From: Daphnia pulex
Taxonomy: Eukaryota > Arthropoda > Branchiopoda > Diplostraca > Daphniidae
Direction of reading: 5' to 3'
DNA: 64,000 nt
NCBI RefSeq assembly: GCF_021134715.1
Contig: NC_060028.1
Coordinates: 10,639,482-10,703,481 of the forward strand
Of the stretch, positions 5,970-33,800 are shown piece by piece. A program made the position numbers and the translations under genes. Position 1 is the first letter of the stretch, and the number at the start of each line of letters is the position of its first letter. Below the pieces are notes generated by a model. That model saw nothing but the letters and a program-made list of their open reading frames with translations, was not told the origin of the DNA and did no database searches.

Positions 5970-6070
5970 AAATGGGGTTCAAGAAATGGGTGTTGGTGGA
6001 AGATATGGGGTTTAAGGAATGGATGTTGGTGGATGTTATGGGGTTTAAGGAATAGATGTTGTTATATAGG
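5970..6070 (+). repeat. 33-bp minisatellite, about three copies
   Basis: Three tandem units each begin GGGGTT(T/C)AAG and contain GTTGGTGGA or a decayed form of it. The 33-bp period keeps frame, giving an 11-residue repeat in a short open frame that I do not consider coding. Confidence 0.7.
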
Positions 6071-7130: not shown

Positions 7131-8020
7131 ACCTTTCACTGGATGACTGCAACAAAAAATCCATGCGCACATGAGACTGCAACAAAGAAGCGCAGACTTC
7201 ACCTGGCTATTGAAAAACAAAGTTAAGTTACTATCAAGGAACATAATCTCATGTGACATAACAAAACGACAGAAGTATGAAGTTAAACTATACAATCTCT
7301 CAGAATTACCTTGATAAATCTTACAAAGGAATTTGTAGTTGTCAAGTTTTCCAACTTGAAAATAACAAATGTAATCCAAATTTTAAAAAATGATCTTAAC
7401 TCATAATTGCAACAGAGAAGCAAAGGGGTCTACTCTCTTGTCATTAACTAAATCTGTAGCGATCAACTATAATTACTTTAATTGTTCTGAAAGTGACGAA
7501 ACGAGCAAGAGACATTTTGGAAAAAATGGATAGCAGTTTCAACACACCAAGTATGTCAGTAAAAAAACATGGAAAAAACACACCAGAATGAATGAGTAAC
7601 TGTAAGATTGAATAACCTGCAATAATAAAGAATGAGTAACCTTTCCGCTCAGTGTCTTTAGAAGAAATGACATTGGATTTGTCATATTGCCATCTAACGT
7701 TACAGCAAACAAACTTTCGTCTACTGACACTGTTGCCACTAGAGGGCTCTGGTCATGGTTTCAAATCTCTCCAGTCCTGACCGCCCTGGTGATATTTCGT
7801 AATTCGACTATTTTCTAATAAATTTCCTATTCTATGAATTTCTTACTTTGACGAAAACTTCGTTTTAGAAACAAAAAAGGAGGAGGGACTTGGTGTATTT
7901 CGTGTGAAAAAAAATTTTGTGTAAAATTACCCTGGAAAAAGATTTTGAACTCTGAATTAGATATTAAAAAACTTCGGAATAATGGGGAAACCGCATTTGC
8001 CAACTGCCATTAGCGTACAA
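7131..8020. other. Intergenic, upstream of the channel-lectin gene
   Basis: AT-rich sequence with no supported exon. The last part must contain the promoter of the gene starting at 8070. Confidence 0.4.
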
Positions 8021-8027
8021 GAGTGCA

Positions 8028-8033
8028 TATATA
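8028..8033 (+). promoter_or_regulatory. Candidate TATA box for the channel-lectin gene
   Basis: GCATATATAGCAG contains TATATA 42-37 bp before the ATG at 8070. If it is used, the 5' UTR would be only about 10 nt, so an upstream promoter with a 5' UTR intron is an alternative. Confidence 0.3.
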
Positions 8034-8069
8034 GCAGTCCACGAGTTACGAATTTTGAAAGTTGTTGAA

Positions 8070-10970
8070 ATGGCGATTATCCAACGAGAAGCGAAGAAGG
8101 CGACTTGCCATTCGTTAATGCCATTAATTATTCTCGGATATGTAGTGATGATGGTGACTGGTAAACCTATATCATCTTTGACCGGAAGTCGAGATTCCAG
8201 CACTGACGCCGTAATCACAACCCCGACTCACCTGCCATCCGATTCAAATTTCCCCAATGACGATGAGCTTACCCCGGAAGAAAAACAGGATTTAATGAAC
8301 ATCTTATTTCCGTCTTCTCGATCATCGACACCTTTGGCGAATTTAACTTGCAATGACGTACTACGAGTTCAAAAACTATACCCGAGAGTCAGCTTAGAGC
8401 TTCTCGTCGATTTCGTCCTAGAGCTTTTGGAAACCGAATCTTACGATCCTTCCAAAGAATTAACCCTGACTCAACATTGCCCAGCAGACCAAGGAGTGTT
8501 TAACAACATCACCGTGTTTCTCTTAAACAAGAGCATTCTGTTTAACTTGCTCGCACTGTTCATCGTGCTGACTGTCTCCGTGCTGGTAGAATTCTGTGGG
8601 CGGATTTATGACCGGAAGAGATCCCCCATCCATGCGGATCTCGAGTCCGGCTCCAACACGGATGACGAACAGGAAATGAAGCCAAAAGACCAAGGAAAAT
8701 GCTCATGGATCTCAGAAAGGATGTACGGAATCTGGGGTGGCATCCAGCCCAGCCATTTAAAAGGTCACCACGAAACAGACGAGCTCGTTTTGCTCAGTTT
8801 CCAACTCTGTCTCATCGCCATTTTGATCCCATCTTTTTTAATGGTGATAACAGTTCTACTGATTGGGGTCTTCACTACGTGGAATGTGATCCGCACCGGT
8901 GTCTGCTTGTGGGTGGTTTTCGTTTACAGCGTTGTTGTTTTCTACTTTCACGGGTCCCGAAACAAGATGACGATTGCGGGCGAGAGTCAAACAAGCCGAC
9001 GCACGCTATTGATTTCAAGAATCCATCGAGACGACTGCACCGAGAGCTTTCTGCGAAGGCATTTCCAAGACAACAATGGCGATGTTGTAGCTGGAGTAAA
9101 TCTGATTCACAAATTGGACGAACCGTCAAACAGTCTTCCAGCCACAGCGGCTTTCGTGACTTTCGCAACCCGACAACACGCCAAATTGGTCATCAATCAA
9201 CCGAGTAACACAAAAAGTTGGTCGCTGGAATGGGCTCCACCTTCTGCGGATATCGTCTGGGACTTTCTGCACCAAAAGGGAAGCCTCCTTTGCCTACTGA
9301 TCAAGATAATTCAATACTTTTTCATCGTCCTATTACCTCTGGTCGGTTCGACCATCGTCGTGGAATCGTTGAAACTCCTGGTCGAGCACGAAAGCCAATC
9401 TTACTACGTCCTGATTTACTCTAAATCGATCATTACCATTGCTATCTTGATCATCGTCCGAATCAGCCCCATCTTCCAGGTGAACCACCTGAGAAAATCC
9501 AGCAAACACTTGGGCGTTTTCCTGTCTTCGTTCGTCATCATCGTCGTATCAGAAATCGTTTTGCCTATGCTCAACTTTAAAGACATTTGGAATTCAATCA
9601 TCTGGACCCGAACCGACCCGGACGTGGTGAATCACTGGATTCGATTGCAGTGCATATTCCGGCCAGACCTGGGCTCTGAAATGGCCATTTCAGTCATCGA
9701 ATGGACTTTGTTTCGCAGCTGCTTCATTTTACCACGAGTGAAACGATGGGCTACCAAAACATGGCTGCGGTTAATCAAATCACCCAATGCCGAGGATGCC
9801 ATTCCGCGCGAAGAATTCGACATGGGCGAGCGCTACTCCGAACTGGTGGCGCAATTTGTCATCACTTGCGTGGGGTATTTCACCTATCCGCCAATTATCC
9901 CCATCACCGTCCTGTGCTTGGTAGTCGGTTACGTCATCGATCGCTACACGACGGCCCAGACGTTCGAGCCCACCTACTCGGGCGCCAACATCCACCGCTG
10001 GGCCATCATACTCGTTTTGATCATGCTGGTCATCCAGAGTGCTCTATTGTTCTTCAAAAACGTCTTAATGGTCGAAGCCGAAGCGAGTCTCATAGGCGAT
10101 TCGGCCCTGGTGGCTCTATGCGTCGGATTAAATTCACTTCTTTGTATCATTTCCATCGCGGTGCAGTTCCTTCTCTTTCGGCCCCAGCAAACGAGTTACG
10201 AAACAATTCCCGGAGCTGAAGACGAATCGCGAGATTATATTCCGCCAGCGCTCGCCGCCAACTTTAAGAGGACGCAGCACTCAACGCCCGAGACCAGAAC
10301 AAAACGACCAACAAAACGGTCTAACACGCAAAAGGCAATCGGATTATTCGGTGGACTGAAACTCGTCCTGTTCACTTTCGTCGTGCCGATTATCGTCGCC
10401 TGCATTATCGTCGTGATAATCAGATTCACCTATGTACCAAAAGTGGCTTACACTAAGTCGGCGGCCAACGTGAGCCTGACGTTAAATGCCAACTTGAGGA
10501 TGTACACGGGTCGCGTCCCGTTCACGACAATGAAGGAAGTCTGCCAAAAAGAGTCGAGTTGGCTGACGATCGAGTCGAGATGCGACGACATTTTACTGGA
10601 CAATGCCGTGCGTAACAATAGGAGCGCCATTTTCGCCAAAACCAATGAAGAGCAACGATTATTGTGGACGGGCGGGTTCTTTGACCTAACGACTAGCGAT
10701 GAGTGGCAATGGCTCGACGAGAGTGCCAAGACGGAATACGACCATTTTTGCCAGCCTAATGAGACGGAAGCAAACATCGCCAAGGCCAGGGAAAGAAACG
10801 TAACAATGCTGTACATTGTGAAAGATTACCGCGGGGACAAGTTCAGCAAAAACGGCCGCTCTTGTTGGCAAATTTACAATCAAGATCAACTTACCGAAAT
10901 GGGATTCAGCTTCCCAGCTGACAAAACTCCACGGCTGCCGTTCGTCTGCCGAGAATCCCATGTCAAGTGA
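8070..10970 (+). CDS. OSCA/TMEM63 (CSC1-like) channel fused to a C-type-lectin-like domain
   Basis: This is one uninterrupted 966-residue frame. I start it at ATG 8070, because the open frame before it begins with TTG. Family members are plasma-membrane mechanically or osmotically gated cation channels. Residues 1-30 look like a signal peptide. The extracellular N-part carries sequons. A first membrane segment lies near 160-180, followed by two more. The cytosolic domain opens with RTLLIS (about 310) and ends with WAPPSADIVW (about 388). The seven-segment core includes the family-like YPPIIPITVL and ending IDRY. The protein then adds a basic linker, an eleventh or twelfth hydrophobic segment (about 762-785) and about 180 residues with WTGG (866-869), C894, C932 and PFVC ending at C960. 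These are C-type-lectin-fold hallmarks, here with four N-glycosylation sequons. The extra segment would place this domain outside the cell. The canonical calcium motif WND is missing, so sugar binding cannot be assumed. TMEM63 proteins are usually near 800 residues. Confidence 0.85.
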   Translation: MAIIQREAKKATCHSLMPLIILGYVVMMVTGKPISSLTGSRDSSTDAVITTPTHLPSDSNFPNDDELTPEEKQDLMNILFPSSRSSTPLANLTCNDVLRVQKLYPRVSLELLVDFVLELLETESYDPSKELTLTQHCPADQGVFNNITVFLLNKSILFNLLALFIVLTVSVLVEFCGRIYDRKRSPIHADLESGSNTDDEQEMKPKDQGKCSWISERMYGIWGGIQPSHLKGHHETDELVLLSFQLCLIAILIPSFLMVITVLLIGVFTTWNVIRTGVCLWVVFVYSVVVFYFHGSRNKMTIAGESQTSRRTLLISRIHRDDCTESFLRRHFQDNNGDVVAGVNLIHKLDEPSNSLPATAAFVTFATRQHAKLVINQPSNTKSWSLEWAPPSADIVWDFLHQKGSLLCLLIKIIQYFFIVLLPLVGSTIVVESLKLLVEHESQSYYVLIYSKSIITIAILIIVRISPIFQVNHLRKSSKHLGVFLSSFVIIVVSEIVLPMLNFKDIWNSIIWTRTDPDVVNHWIRLQCIFRPDLGSEMAISVIEWTLFRSCFILPRVKRWATKTWLRLIKSPNAEDAIPREEFDMGERYSELVAQFVITCVGYFTYPPIIPITVLCLVVGYVIDRYTTAQTFEPTYSGANIHRWAIILVLIMLVIQSALLFFKNVLMVEAEASLIGDSALVALCVGLNSLLCIISIAVQFLLFRPQQTSYETIPGAEDESRDYIPPALAANFKRTQHSTPETRTKRPTKRSNTQKAIGLFGGLKLVLFTFVVPIIVACIIVVIIRFTYVPKVAYTKSAANVSLTLNANLRMYTGRVPFTTMKEVCQKESSWLTIESRCDDILLDNAVRNNRSAIFAKTNEEQRLLWTGGFFDLTTSDEWQWLDESAKTEYDHFCQPNETEANIAKARERNVTMLYIVKDYRGDKFSKNGRSCWQIYNQDQLTEMGFSFPADKTPRLPFVCRESHVK

Positions 10971-11028
10971 AATTCCCATCGTAGTTTAAACTTTCTGAAA
11001 TGAATAATATAATCATGTCATTTTCGTC

Positions 11029-11038
11029 AATAAATAAA
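11029..11038 (+). terminator. Poly(A) signals of the channel-lectin gene
   Basis: Two overlapping AATAAA hexamers (11029 and 11033) lie 59-68 bp after the TGA at 10968-10970, giving a short 3' UTR. Confidence 0.7.
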
Positions 11039-11039
11039 T

Positions 11040-11639
11040 TTGAATCACATTTAAAGAAAAACAAAAATGTTGTTGTAGTTATTTTTGAATAGCCATTAAC
11101 TTGTGTCGTTTAATAAGTTCACGGTTACCGCAACAAAAAGTTGCGCGGATTAGAACGTAACCTCGGAATAGTTTTGATTTGAAACACGGACGTGTAGTAC
11201 ACAAGTTTGAGGAGTCATTATATCGAAGGGCTCTTTAATGTGTATTGGGTAAAAGTTTCCACGACGTAGAAAGTTGATTACAGAGTGTTCGCGGGAACGG
11301 CATGTCATGTCTTCCCAAAAGTTGCTTTATTGGAACGCGCTGCTGGCGGTAAACAAGGAGGGAGCCACATTAATGGCACACGTTGTTCTCTGTCAATCTT
11401 GGTGTAGAGACAAGACTAACGAGGTTAACCAACTACACACACACACAACTACCCGAGCTGTAATTTGATTGCATGCGAAAAGCACACGCAATATGGCCAT
11501 GCATAAACCAAGCGTCGTGACATAAGGGATTAAGGGGGGACGAAAAGTATTGATGTTGACTAGAAAGATTTAATATTCGACAAGAATGCGCCTAACACGA
11601 TAATGAAACCACCTTGATGGAAAAAAATGTACAATTTTT
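11040..11639. other. Intergenic between convergent genes
   Basis: No exon is recognised. The flanking genes point towards each other, so the segment should hold the ends of both 3' UTRs. Confidence 0.4.
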
Positions 11640-11936
11640 TCACAAGTAAATGATACTCTGAAATCTTGTGGGAATTGCTCCGGGTTTGAGCACCGGACGA
11701 ACGGCGATAGTCGTCTGTTTTCCGTCTACCGTTGACACTCGACTTTTGATGATGGCGTCATCGTCGAAATGGAGGTCGCACACTTTAGATGATTTGGTGA
11801 CGACGGCGTCTATAGGTAGCGCCCTCTTCCAAGCCAAGAGTCGGTTTTCATCTTTCGGGAATGAAAACAAGATCCGATTTTCCATTTCCATCGTTTCAGC
11901 CCGAGTTGTGCAACCGGGCACGAAACAAGCGCACAT
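11640..11936 (-). CDS. Small THAP-domain zinc-finger protein (single exon or first exon)
   Basis: The frame encodes 98 residues that are almost entirely a THAP domain, a C2CH zinc finger that binds DNA and is related to the P-element transposase DNA-binding domain. C4 and C9 (CFVPGC), the FSFPKDE stretch, W35 in LLAWKRAL, and CDLHF (Cys-x2-His) give the zinc ligands and core. The C-terminal GAIPTRF occupies the position of the family's AVPTxF box. THAP proteins normally carry more sequence after this domain; here TGA follows nine residues later. Either the gene is a solitary THAP domain, or this is exon 1 of a longer gene whose donor I could not place. It is convergent with the gene ending at 10970 and in tandem with the fibrinogen-domain gene. 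Confidence 0.75.
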   Translation of the reverse strand: MCACFVPGCTTRAETMEMENRILFSFPKDENRLLAWKRALPIDAVVTKSSKVCDLHFDDDAIIKSRVSTVDGKQTTIAVRPVLKPGAIPTRFQSIIYL

Positions 11937-16778: not shown

Positions 16779-19700
16779 TCAATGAACCGACGGAGTCGAG
16801 TCGACGCTGGCCGTCGCCGTCGTCGTTGCTGGTTGGTTGAAAATTCGCTTGTCCCGCACCTTCATCTCGACTTTGGCCAGGGCGATCCACTCGTTCTCCA
16901 GGCTGTCGTACCAGGTCAATCCCAGGGCGTATTTGCCGTTGATGTTGACGTGCTGACAGTGCGAGTACCACCAGCCGCCCTGGTAGCTGTCGGCGCAGTT
17001 GGTGTTGCTCAGGTCCTGGTCGTTGTCCCGCGTGCTGAACTTCATCGACTGGTGGTAGGAGGCCATGGCGTCCGAGGCGTTGCCCGTGTAGCCGTGGAAC
17101 TGGACCGAGTAGCCCTCGTTCTCGCTGCCCACAACGAAGCTGTCGTACTCGGCCCACCAGTACTGGCCGTAAATGTCCCACAGGTCCACCCGCAGCATCG
17201 TCGTGTTGTCCTCCGTCAGACGGTGGAGGTTGTCGTTGCCCAGCCAGAATTCGCCCATCACAGAGCCGAAACCCGTTTTGTAGGCGGCCCAGTTGCGGTT
17301 GAAATCCTCTTTGCCGTCCGACCGGCGCTGGATGACGGTCCATCCGCCGCCGGAAGTCTCCTGGTCGCAGTAAACTTTGACGACTTCACTGGACTCACGC
17401 GGGAGAATGTAATTGACGCCCGTCGACGACACGTCGCGGCAATCTGAGATTAAACAACAGAAAAATGGGGTTGAATTAATTGTGAAATTAAATTAAATGC
17501 GGAAGAAAATGGGACTCACCGTGAGGTAAATTGTGGGCGAGATTGTTGTACTCGTGTTCCAGATGGGCCAGGCTCTGCTTGAGCGAATCGATCGACTGGG
17601 CAGACTGGATGGACTGCTCAATCTGGGCGAATCTCCAGTTCTGGACCTGCTGTCCGTGGCTCTGATTCATCATGGCCAGCGTGTTGTTGGTGAGTTTGGC
17701 TAGCAAAAGAGCCGAGCGGATCTGATCGGCCTGGACCTGCTCCTGCAGTAGAGTCGTCGTCGCCCTCATCGACTTGACCAGTTCCGACTGCTCGCCCTGA
17801 TCCTCCTTGAGCGTGTGGACGGTGGACGTCAGCTGGCCGTCGTTGTACTCAAGTTTGGCCACTTCACGCTGGAGTTCGCCAATGTTGTCGTCGTAGCGCT
17901 CCTCCAGCCGCTCCATCGCTTCAAAGAGCTGAAGCGTCGACGACTGGACCTGATCGACGCCGGAAACTTTCAGCGTCAGCCGGTCGACGCTCTCGGCCAG
18001 CTTCTTGTTCTGGGCGCTGATTTCGGCCACGTCTTCCGCGTTGCTGCCGGCGCAGTTGCTGGACGGCTGCGACTCGAGCCGCTTCAGGACGGCCCTCAGT
18101 TCCGTTTCCATTTTGTGGACGTTGGACTCGGCGGTGGTCCTCAATTGGCTCAGCAGGACCATCTGTTTCTGCAGGTCGTGCTGTTCGCCGGCCAGCGTCT
18201 TGACCATCTTCCTCAGCGTGTGAACTTGGTGTTTGAGCTCGCTGCGGTGGTGGCGGATCCGGTGGTGCTGGCGGGGCTGGACCGATGTGTCCGTCGCCGT
18301 GGTGGCCATCGTCGACAGTCGGTTCATCTCCTCGTCCGTTTGCTGGACGTCGTCGATGACGGATCGGGTCCTCCTCCGCTGGTTCTTCTTGGTCTTGAGC
18401 ATGTTGACAACGGGCTCTTCGTGCTCACTGTCGGCCATGGCCAGCATCTTGTGGGAGAGTTGCATTTCCAGTCGAATGTCGGCCATCTGTTTGAATCGAA
18501 AAAAAAACATTCCGTTATTATTATTATCAATTTCCTTGCGCAACATAAAAGATGTTTTGATTAGGGCTTTCAAAGTCGGCTGGATTTCCATCCGCATTTT
18601 GCACCCGTCAAAAAATAAAAAATAAACCGTAAGAAAAAAAAAATCACATGAAAGGGAGAACACACATCTCAAAGCTCATCCCCCCCCCTTCACAAAAGCG
18701 TAGTCGGGACGGATCAATCCGAGTGTAAAAGAAAACGCCAGAACCGGAATTTTCTTTCTTTTGGTGAAAAGAGATGCGAGCACCGAGGGTGAGAGAAAGC
18801 CTAGACAACGTGTGCGTCGCTGGAGCGTAACATCTAAAGACGGTAACATCTCATCCGCCATGCGAAACTTGTGCGATCCAGCACCCAACCCAAAAATAAA
18901 AATAAAAGCAGACGACGGCCAACTTATTATCCCACGCAGCTGCTGGAACGCTTATTTTGAGATGGAACTGACGGTTTATTTTGCCAAAAAAATAAAAAGG
19001 GTAGAAGGAAACATTTGGCCAGGGACAACATTTCATTTGTTTAAATGTTTTTATTTCTACCCCTCGGTTCTTTTTTTACGCGCTAGTTTCAAACACGCAT
19101 TAGTTTATCGTCCAGTAATGATGACTTTTGGGACCCATTGCGGTTGTTTTCGAGCTTTTTTTTTGGGATATGACTAACAAGAAAGAAGAATAGACATCAT
19201 GAAAGTTTTTTTTCTTTTCTTTTTGTGCTGATAATAGAGTGTGTAGTTATATATAAGAAAGAACCCCGCGCCAACCAGCAGGCCGGATGTGTTATGGACG
19301 AGCGGAGGGGAGCCGATGGTGGCAATCAAGTTATGGTGGGTTAACATCATATGTTGTTGTAGGAGACGACTTAACTGTATAATATATACCAAGACCATTC
19401 TCAGTTGCCTTTCAGCTATTATATAGCTCTCGGACTAGCATCAAAATTATGATCCGGACGGAAGGATATATATATTTGTCCAGAGTGTAATGTAGAGACT
19501 TACATTTCGGCGACTGGTGGATATACATAAATCAACCGATTCTTTTTTGCTTTATTTCTTTGCAGCTCTAAAAGGCACTTGAAGAGACAAATCTCCGCTA
19601 TTCTATCTCTATGTCTTAACAATCTCGAATGGGGCAAATCCGGCGAGGCCGAAGAGTACACGACGATTGACTCGTCGTGCGGAGGGGGTGGCATTGATTG

Positions 19701-30800: not shown

Positions 30801-33800
30801 AAAAGAAATAAGAAAGAAATTTGTGCGTTGAGCGACACGGTCAGAGAGCACCAAGTTAACAACAAAAAATGTTCTTTTTTTGGGTGAATCAATTTCTCGG
30901 AAATAAATTGCGCAGTCGAGATAATAAAAGGGGGGCCAGCAGAAGCGAAAAAAAGAAGTTGATTGTTATTCATATTTTTTCCCTTGTCGGCGACACTAAC
31001 TTTTTCTACCCTCTCCACTTCAATAGAGTCCAGCTTTTTCAAATTCGATCCAGACTTTATTATTTACTGTATCAAAAATTTAATAGACACGCTCCCCTAT
31101 TCCATTTTTCAGAGGGGCTTCTTCTCTATTCGACGAATAAAAAAATATGAGACGGTCATAAACGACAGGAAAGAAATAGAAGATAAAAGGTTTTATTCCG
31201 CTCGTCTCTATTTCTTGACTTGCCAAGTCGACTGGCCGAGTCGGCAGGTGAGAGCTAAGAGCAGATGAATCTCGTCTAGACAGTCACGTAACAAACAAAC
31301 AACAGCAGAGAAAAAGTAGAAACATTGACGGATGTTTTGGTTGTCCCGGATAACAAATGATAAGAACCTGAAACTTCTTTTCATTCAGATGAATGGCAAT
31401 CCGGAAAAGTGATAATGGGCATCTGTTTTTATCATCATCACTTCCGTCTCTCTTGGAGCTCCAGTTTCGCCGATATTTTTAGTCACGCTTCCCGTCGAGT
31501 AGATTCTCTCACTCGTTACACAAAAGGAGGGACCGAGTACTTTTTGTATCATCCCATCAAGTCAAACCATTTTTTCGCACAGACGAGGGGGCCATAGGAT
31601 GTATAAATAATGATCCATCCTTCACCGCGTTCCTAATAACGTCCAGGTGCTAGAGATACTCGAGAGATGAGAAACTTGGCCATTATCTTTTCTCCACATT
31701 TCATCCGCATTTGCATAGACATTTAGAGACTCGAGACTCCGCGAGACTCGAGTGTTGATGCAGTTCTTGAAAAGTCTCTCACTCGGATATCCATCCAGCA
31801 TGCGAGCTGATGTTTTCAGTCTTAGATATAATTAGAGCCGCGTGTTTTCTTGTTGCCCTCTTCTCATTTTATCTTTCGCGCTTGATTGGAACACACACCC
31901 AAAAGAGAGAAAAAGAAAATAAGAAAGAAAGAAGCCCGTTCTTAATGATGATATTGACAAGGACTGCATCAAAACTTGTCATCTCTCCTCCAGGCCGTCA
32001 ACTCCAGCTCAGACTGTGTGACTCTCTTTCTCGCTAATCATTCCTTCAAGGAAAGAAGAAAACATCCGTCGTTCCGGCGTTGTGGTCCATATAGATTTTG
32101 GGGAGAACACAGGAGAGAGAGAGAGTTGGTTTCCTTCCGGAATAGAAAGGGGGGATAAAAACATATTAATGCGCCGGAATGTTTGCCCTAGCTGACGCAC
32201 ACGACAACGGTGAGACCATAAACGACCGACCGACCGACGACAACGACCTGCTTTATATTCGCCTAGCGGAATATGGTATAGATCAATAAAGCGGCTAAAA
32301 CTCTACTCCTCCTCCTGTAGTACAACTTTTGACTCTGGGCGGTTCCGCTTTTTCTTCTGGACGAATTTTTTTTTTCGTTCGGCAAACTCTGGAAAAAAGG
32401 AAATTCCAGACTAGGGAACCGAACAAATGTTGGCGAGAGCGTGACATCGCCACTTGCTCTCTCGCAAGCAGACGACAAATGAACCAACAAAAGAAAATTG
32501 GCACGATCTTCCGGACTGGGAAAAAGTAAAAAGAACCGGAAGAAAAAAAATTTCTTTTTGTGAAATTGGCGTTTATTTCTTTTTCCCTCCCAATTCCTGA
32601 TCTTGTTAAGTGGCAACTATGAAAAGAAAAAAAAAGTGAGATGCCCAGCACAGCACAGAGTCTTACTAGTAGATGTCTCAAGAGACCCAGAGCTATACAC
32701 TCTAATCCGCAACGTCCGGACTGGACATTTCACGTTGTTGTACATTGCGGAATAATCTCCTACTTCCTCCCCAACGTTATTTTTCGGGTGGGGTTTCGCC
32801 CGTGCCCATTAAGAGGATCACACACACACATTCACACACATTTTCCACCTTTTCTCTCTTTCGGAAAAGGTCAGAGAGTCGTAAATCGTCACGGGGGTGA
32901 CGGATTGTCCTGGACCCCCTTGCGTTTTCATTTCAAAAGTTGATTCGAAAAAACCCGCGCAAAAGTCCGGCACAAGCTCAGGTGCTGTCCAAGTTATCAG
33001 CCCAACCAACGTGGGGGTATACATCCAAAACGCCAGGTGCTGGCACACACAGAAGACGAAAACCGGTTCTCCTGTTTCTCTTCTTGCCACTCGGCAGTCG
33101 CCATATGAGCGATAAGTCGGGCAAAAGGTTTTTTCTTTATCGGTGGTTGAAAATCGACAGTCTAATAGCAGCAGCAGCAGCAGCCGTTAGACACACACAC
33201 ACACGATCGATGGGCTCAAGGGCCTATGGGCGGTCAGGTGTTGTGTGGCCATGTTGAAATAGAACAAGCAGCTGCTGCCGTCCGACAAACCAATCTTCTT
33301 GTATAAACTCTATCGCATTATTTTTATTTCTCCCCCAATGACACACAGAGTGTCCCGATTGAAGCCCATGTGGCGTTGCTGGCCGCCACCTGATATGCGG
33401 GCGTGGTGGCTCTTATAGACTAGACGCTGGTCAAATCCGACAATAAAAAAACCTGCGGGTTTATTACCCACAAAAACACTTTTTGTTTTTTCGAAAAATA
33501 CCCGCATTATTATTTCTAATGTGTTTATTTAACGTGATGTGTCGTGGTGGTGATGGTAGGAAGGATGACGTCATAAATTGCTTGGAAGGAAACATTCCGC
33601 GGGATGGATGGGAAAACTTTTTCTTTTTTCATTCGTGCGCAGATGTCGCCCGACCGAGTGACACATCCGCTTTTTTTTCATCTTTTATCTTTCTTTCTTT
33701 TTAGATTTATGTAAATAAATTGATCAATATTGAACAATGAGCGCAAATGTACAGGCTGCGCATTCAACATGGGCGCCGCGGGATGAAAAACAACCGCAAA

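Follow-up and report, generated by a model that had tools for sequence, protein, structure and literature searches.

Analysis of a 64,000-nucleotide stretch of the Daphnia pulex genome (assembly GCF_021134715.1, contig NC_060028.1, positions 10,639,482 to 10,703,481; hereafter the window, whose coordinates are used below) showed one open reading frame (ORF) on the forward strand at 8070-10970 that joins a TMEM63-type channel core to an additional membrane helix and a C-terminal C-type-lectin-like domain. We favour, at about even confidence, the reading that this fusion protein is made from a single message and works as a TMEM63-type conductance tethered by its lectin, with altered gating. What the sequence itself shows is the unbroken frame, the family to which each half belongs, the gap in the cytosolic IL2 domain and the changed gate residues; topology, single message, origin by gene fusion and function are inferred.

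The ORF starts with the ATG at 8070 and ends with the stop codon at 10968-10970, giving 966 aa with no internal stop, as the original prediction had stated. The chance of 966 open codons was estimated at about 4e-21 at the local base composition, and the other two forward frames contain 59 and 26 stops. No N is present among the assembly letters of the stretch 7500-11300. The fusion is continuous in the assembly and genuine. Within the window, no second copy of the gene was found; the sole other tblastn match (31743-31856, reverse strand, E 2.6) contains an internal stop. The parts of the gene and its flanking signals were placed as follows.

8028-8033, forward strand: promoter-like TATATA, 42 bases 5′ of the ATG (by position only)
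8070-10970, forward strand: channel-lectin fusion, a single intronless genomic frame of 966 aa
8070-8162, forward strand: hydrophobic N-terminus (residues 1-31), signal-peptide-like or signal anchor (by hydropathy only)
8169-8528, forward strand: predicted extracellular N-terminal region (residues 34-153), with sequons at 91, 146 and 153
8532-8612, forward strand: predicted transmembrane helix (TM) 0, residues 155-181 (hydropathy and global alignment)
8808-8942, forward strand: predicted TM1 and TM2, residues 247-291 (hydropathy and global alignment)
8961-9269, forward strand: shortened cytosolic PHM7_cyt/IL2 domain, residues 298-400; the absent part is, by position, probably the beam and hook
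9273-10193, forward strand: predicted TM3-TM10 core, residues 402-708
9678-9692, forward strand: TM6 gate positions E537, M538 and S541 (F542, F543 and Y546 in TMEM63C)
10194-10337, forward strand: predicted cytosolic tail or linker with a basic end, residues 709-756
10338-10424, forward strand: predicted additional membrane segment TM11, residues 757-785 (hydropathy 3.35; six lysine or arginine residues on the N-terminal side, one on the C-terminal side)
10467-10967, forward strand: C-type-lectin-like domain, residues 800-966, with C825, C894, C932, C960 and WTGG invariant in all four copies compared
11029-11038, forward strand: two overlapping AATAAA poly(A) signals, at 11029 and 11033

Residues 380-725 were assigned by sequence matches to the TMEM63 channel family. 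In a Pfam search PHM7_cyt was matched with 32.1 bits (cut-off 27), and all 16 sequences found with phmmer in the PDB at E ≤ 1 were TMEM63 or OSCA proteins by name. The best PDB match was TMEM63C (8k0b; E 4.2e-12, residues 383-725), the TM1-TM2 stretch of that alignment not being significant. The PHM7_cyt and PDB matches together span residues 350-746 and matches within the same genome residues 373-725; since significant local matches stop there, TM0-TM2 (residues 150-300) rest on hydropathy and on global alignment with the paralogues. The order TM0-TM10 was obtained from hydropathy and alignment, with TM6 (1.16) below the threshold and TM7 and TM8 not separated. The channel profile check proposed with the original prediction thus held for PHM7_cyt, and RSN1_TM and RSN1_7TM were not listed for the fusion protein at E ≤ 10 (RSN1_7TM, 16.4 bits vs. 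a cut-off of 28.7).

Three full-length single-frame TMEM63-like genes are present in the same genome (L002, L003 and L006; 735, 762 and 762 aa by predicted start codons), and because these likewise fell below the two RSN1 cut-offs or were not listed, the profile misses do not set the fusion protein apart from them. They are mutually 49-58% identical in the 7TM part, where the fusion protein showed 24% identity to L002, 24% to L003, 18% to L006 and 21% to an exon-split TMEM63-like gene on contig C2 that reads like an ordinary TMEM63. In a FastTree tree of seven sequences the fusion protein had the longest branch (1.48 substitutions per site) and was located between the intronless and the ordinary TMEM63 groups; in both comparisons the C2 sequence is a composite picked by eye. 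C528, F530, P532, G535 and the DR at 624-625 of the fusion protein are common to all three intronless paralogues. For the N-terminal region (residues 1-167), a search of this genome at E ≤ 10 found nothing besides the region itself. Further TMEM63-like sequences were observed on two contigs. At G000:C4:348774-360098 (L029, L033, L034) a single-frame gene lies near two partial copies of its C-terminal 123-124 residues with 97-98% identity, and a recent local duplication is suggested by this near-identity and adjacency. At G000:C5:1978111-1980340 and 1648670-1649137 (L035-L038) there are four pieces, two of which contain an internal stop, so that they may be broken or exon-split copies.

The original prediction described a complete channel, and this description stood as far as the TMEM63-type core is concerned. 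It did not stand for the TM2-TM3 cytosolic (IL2) domain: from the first cytosolic strand to the APP motif there are 75 residues in the fusion protein compared to 156, 177 and 155 in L002, L003 and L006, which means that about 80 residues present in all three paralogues are absent. The C2 gene has a Cys-rich piece at this position. In TMEM63B, this part of IL2 consists of two long helices (IL2H2 and IL2H3), a "beam-like domain", and a palmitoylated hook (PMC13332465), and the missing piece is, from its position, probably the beam and hook. Nor did the description stand for the gate. The gate residues of TMEM63C are F542, F543 and Y546 (PMC10636204), and in the phmmer alignment, which reproduced the published numbering, these correspond to E537, M538 and S541; L002, L003 and L006 retain the first F only, and the C2 gene reads GAFFVNYV (FF..Y). 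Besides, K452 and R463 are found in TM4 of the fusion protein, in a register relative to the relatives that is uncertain. TM6 hydropathy was 1.16 in the fusion protein, 1.17 in L002, 1.43 in TMEM63C and at most 1.73 among the seven sequences; being low in all seven, it is by itself no sign of decay. Thus, the core reads as something other than a complete typical channel, with IL2 cut short and the gate residues replaced. These changes point to altered gating, and the acidic neck residue and the overall divergence also fit a non-conducting core. The mechanical gating named in the original prediction is therefore an assumption, since the core lacks both the IL2 part and the F/F/Y gate.

The additional membrane segment of the original prediction was supported by hydropathy as a predicted TM11, whose residues 766-784 are the most hydrophobic stretch. 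Another hydrophobic stretch, residues 11-29, is signal-peptide-like by hydropathy. In TMEM63C the N-terminus is extracellular and the C-terminus cytosolic (PMC10636204); a core of this kind would end inside, and one extra crossing would therefore place the lectin outside. All seven sequons fall within two regions, 34-154 and 786-966, that together contain 20 of the 40 Asn residues (P 0.004, to be taken as a guide only because the borders of the outside regions were drawn after the sequence had been seen). The basic-flanked TM11 and the position of the sequons both fit an extracellular lectin, so the predicted topology agrees with itself, as had been claimed.

For the C-terminal half, the features named in the original prediction were all present: WTGG at 866-869, C894, C932, PFVC ending at C960 and sequons at 800, 850, 897 and 910. 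The last 239 residues gave no Pfam match at E ≤ 10, Lectin_C included, and with the last 182 residues the best PDB match was CLEC4A (E 0.32). The lectin profile check thus failed for the fusion protein alone, and it was the family to which the domain belongs that matched C-type lectins. The same domain was found at two other loci of the genome, both single frames on contig C12, to which the window also belongs: L004 (E 4.8e-10), encoding 377 aa with one copy, and L009 (E 5.6e-9), encoding 477 aa with two copies. In both, one hydrophobic helix follows a basic N-terminus (by eye), and by the positive-inside rule they are therefore predicted to be type II proteins. The Lectin_C profile scored 14.7 bits with L004 (E 0.055; cut-off 22.6), and L009 was not listed. 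As an observation in its own right, L009:844-2277 (reverse strand) encodes, in a single frame, a predicted type II membrane protein that carries two lectin-like domains of this subfamily in tandem, and the relatives found are all on C12. That the lectin could be a chance reading of non-coding DNA was rejected, as related domains are present in these two other genes.

The lectin domain of the fusion protein is 26-33% identical to the copies in L004 and L009 and has the same four cysteines. The alignment of the four copies contained 17 invariant columns, including C825, WTGG 866-869, W881, D883, FC 893-894, D919, CW 932-933, Y936 and C960. When the four-copy profile was compared with the PDB, 28 of the 33 sequences at E ≤ 10 were C-type lectin domains, an assignment made by molecule name; the other five were three ubiquitin-type proteins, a type VI immunity protein and a dehydrogenase. 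Seven PF00059 domains from this genome, picked for coverage among eight that had been taken from 51 matches, were compared with the profile by hhalign; the match extended over 89 columns with 6% identity, a probability of 84.7 and E 6.7e-6. Without gap columns the score was 40.3, compared to maxima of 19.5 and 20.0 in 200 column shuffles of either profile (400 in total) and to 9.8 for a reversed-profile control. A further hhalign control, of the four-copy alignment A2 against alignment A1, was discounted because A1 contains the lectin of the fusion protein itself.

The hhalign match is confined to the first two thirds of the domain; in the last third, which has an insert and wider Cys spacing, only FVC was matched, by eye. 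The domain is therefore read as C-type-lectin-like, its long-loop region being altered. Canonical domains of this kind have an outer (C1-C4) and an inner (C2-C3) disulfide, with a last spacing of about 8 residues. Here, C825 and C960 are compatible with the outer pair; C894 and C932 do not vary among the four copies, but the last spacing is 20-28 residues. The lectin-like fold thus stood through its family profile, and for the N-terminal two thirds only. The usual calcium and sugar motifs of C-type lectins are EPN or QPD and WND. WND is absent, as the original prediction had noted, and a QPN at 895-897 lies near the usual EPN place in the fusion protein copy only. The argument from a missing WND alone to the lack of a calcium site was rejected, as the QPN leaves such a site possible. 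In summary, the C-terminal approximately 165 residues are assigned to the C-type-lectin-like domains, and it is the family profile that supports the fold.

The original prediction knew of no such fusion among animal TMEM63 proteins. Within this genome, no lectin domain was found on L002, L003 or L006, nor on the C2 gene as read, the last frame of which ends about 54 residues past TM10. Literature searches on TMEM63 with lectins, Daphnia TMEM63 and lectin-mechanosensitive channel fusions, which covered titles and abstract openings and left most subscription literature outside their scope, found no TMEM63/CSC1-like-lectin fusion among the matches listed. The fusion combines a channel family and a domain fold that are both known, and its core is reshaped. 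It resembles TMEM63A/B/C and plant OSCA in its sequence matches and, presumably, in helix order and extracellular N-terminus, and differs from them by the IL2 gap, the changed gate, an N-terminal ectodomain of about 120 residues, TM11 and the lectin-like domain. Compared with the fusion protein, the 735-762 aa paralogues L002, L003 and L006 are also single-frame and TMEM63-type, whereas they have no lectin, a full-length IL2 and F at the first gate position. L004 and L009 share the domain family and the four cysteines; they have no channel core, and carry one or two domain copies. Polycystin-1 (PC-1) differs in having a TRP-type partner, PC-2, and an N-terminal lectin among many domains, and the PC-1/PC-2 channel fold is unrelated to that of TMEM63. 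It is similar in that, as a subunit of a channel complex, it carries a C-type lectin domain outside the cell through which activation is controlled (PMC7728438). A TMEM63 protein also meets a lectin in the case of TMEM63A and a Haemonchus galectin, which are separate host and parasite proteins, the lectin having a galectin fold (PMC4404006).

According to the favoured reading, an OSCA/TMEM63-type core of 11 helices, with its N-terminus outside and its tail inside, would be followed by a short cytosolic tail, then by a twelfth helix across the membrane and, outside, by a C-type-lectin-like domain of the kind that other genes of this genome carry on type II single-pass proteins. This domain may bind protein or glycan on the matrix, on another cell or on the glycosylated N-terminal ectodomain of the protein itself. 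Such a bond would pull or shift TM11, the 48-residue tail would pass this on to the pore helices, and the core would open as a cation (or cation/lipid) pathway in which the built-in gate and tension beam are reduced. In TMEM63B the C-tail acts as an autoinhibitor, and scrambling becomes constitutive once the LQD motif of the tail is deleted (PMC13332465). As the 48-residue tail of the fusion protein ends in TM11 and the lectin, an outside pull or ligand could be wired to the part that in TMEM63B controls the core. PC-1/PC-2 activation requires the C-type lectin domain of PC-1, whose ligands may be glycans of the TOP domain (PMC7728438), a precedent for a lectin domain as the activator of a channel; in the fusion protein the partner could be its own glycosylated N-terminal ectodomain. 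In favour of altered gating, TMEM63C becomes more active when any one of its three gate residues is changed to alanine (PMC10636204).

Several observations weigh against this reading. The best six PDB matches of the four-copy profile, all C-type lectins, had E 0.0074-0.047 and none was below 0.001, so that each match is weak, and single-sequence structure predictions gave no usable model (predicted local distance difference test scores, pLDDT, of 40.7 and 44.6). Conduction is not assured, as the core is only 18-24% identical to its relatives in the 7TM part and has the acidic E537 in the gate. The gate substitutions are not alanines, and in TMEM63B two of the equivalent gate changes raise activity and Y572A lowers it (PMC10636204). 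The tail could not control the core exactly as in TMEM63B, because the beam and hook contacted by the TMEM63B tail seem to be absent. In addition, PC-1L3 has a lectin domain that fails to activate its channel (PMC7728438). A last objection, from codon usage, concerns the linker and is given next.

The fusion gene probably gives one single message and may have originated by the joining of two intronless genes. A codon model trained without residues 721-810, for which the remaining blocks served as training data and so provide no independent test, scored the linker block 721-750 at -0.10 in frame and -0.03/-0.16 in the other frames. This block is thus silent on coding and, together with an ATTAAA at 10127, would be in keeping with two messages, an in-frame spliced linker intron or a misassembly that juxtaposed the channel and lectin halves. 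The next two held-out blocks support coding, with +0.33 in frame vs. -0.28/-0.62 for 751-780, which includes most of TM11, and +0.08 vs. -0.93/-0.24 for the block up to residue 810. No AATAAA was found inside the gene, where the ATTAAA is the single one. In 10151-10700 a simple pattern search showed a single donor-like site, at 10470, and nothing acceptor-like. In-frame Met is absent from residues 668-810, so that a membrane-anchored lectin would have no ATG of its own. With the unbroken frame and the assembly letters free of N, these results make a separation of the two halves very improbable.

The main rival, which we consider unlikely and yet a real possibility, is that of a pseudo-channel receptor, whose TMEM63 core would no longer conduct and, as part of a 12-helix protein, would anchor or scaffold a surface domain of adhesion or immune recognition. 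The replacement of F/F/Y by E/M/S, the shortening of IL2 to 75 residues between landmarks that are 155-177 residues apart in the paralogues, the longest branch of the tree and the RSN1_7TM score below its cut-off all fit such a core. The frame is nevertheless intact over 966 codons and the membrane helices are kept, with TM6 hydropathy close to that of L002 and slightly under that of TMEM63C, and C528, F530, P532, G535 and the DR at 624-625 are those of all three paralogues. An improbable alternative is a constitutive leak or scramblase, in which the lectin-like domain would place the protein without a role in gating. Alanine at F542, F543 or Y546 gives higher activity in TMEM63C (PMC10636204), and single TM4 lysines (L438K in OSCA1.2; W472K or S475K in TMEM63A) lead to phosphatidylserine exposure and lipid scrambling (PMC11534332), which would suit the replaced gate and K452 and R463. 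However, the TM4 register is not fixed by the alignment, A476K in TMEM63A gave no obvious phosphatidylserine exposure (PMC11534332), and a constitutive leak would presumably be costly to the cell.

Other features of the window were observed in the neighbourhood of the gene. A minisatellite with a 33-base unit (2.7 copies, 89% matches) lies at 5972-6061. About 670 bases past the fusion gene, a frame of 98 aa at 11640-11936 (reverse strand) encodes a THAP zinc finger (E 1.4e-13). At 16779-18672 (reverse strand) a Fibrinogen_C domain (E 1e-57) adjoins a long, coiled-coil-looking frame (17488-18672), perhaps together one gene for a fibrinogen-related protein. A sigma-70 scan of 7900-8100, a method built for bacteria, showed no promoter. 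Among viral contigs, in a scan that may exclude the records of this genome, six pattern-matching stretches were found and none encodes a relative.

OSCA/TMEM63 channels are thought to sense tension directly from lipids. For the lectin-tethered conductance favoured here, it is conceivable, though we hold it to be doubtful, that the force input has been exchanged: with the beam and hook lost, the gate residues replaced and a type II lectin-like receptor placed on the regulatory tail, gating would follow an extracellular ligand or tether and not membrane tension. If true, the Daphnia protein would be a natural test of which parts of the TMEM63 fold serve conduction, tension sensing and tail control, and an evolutionary example of a bilayer-sensing channel turned receptor-channel.

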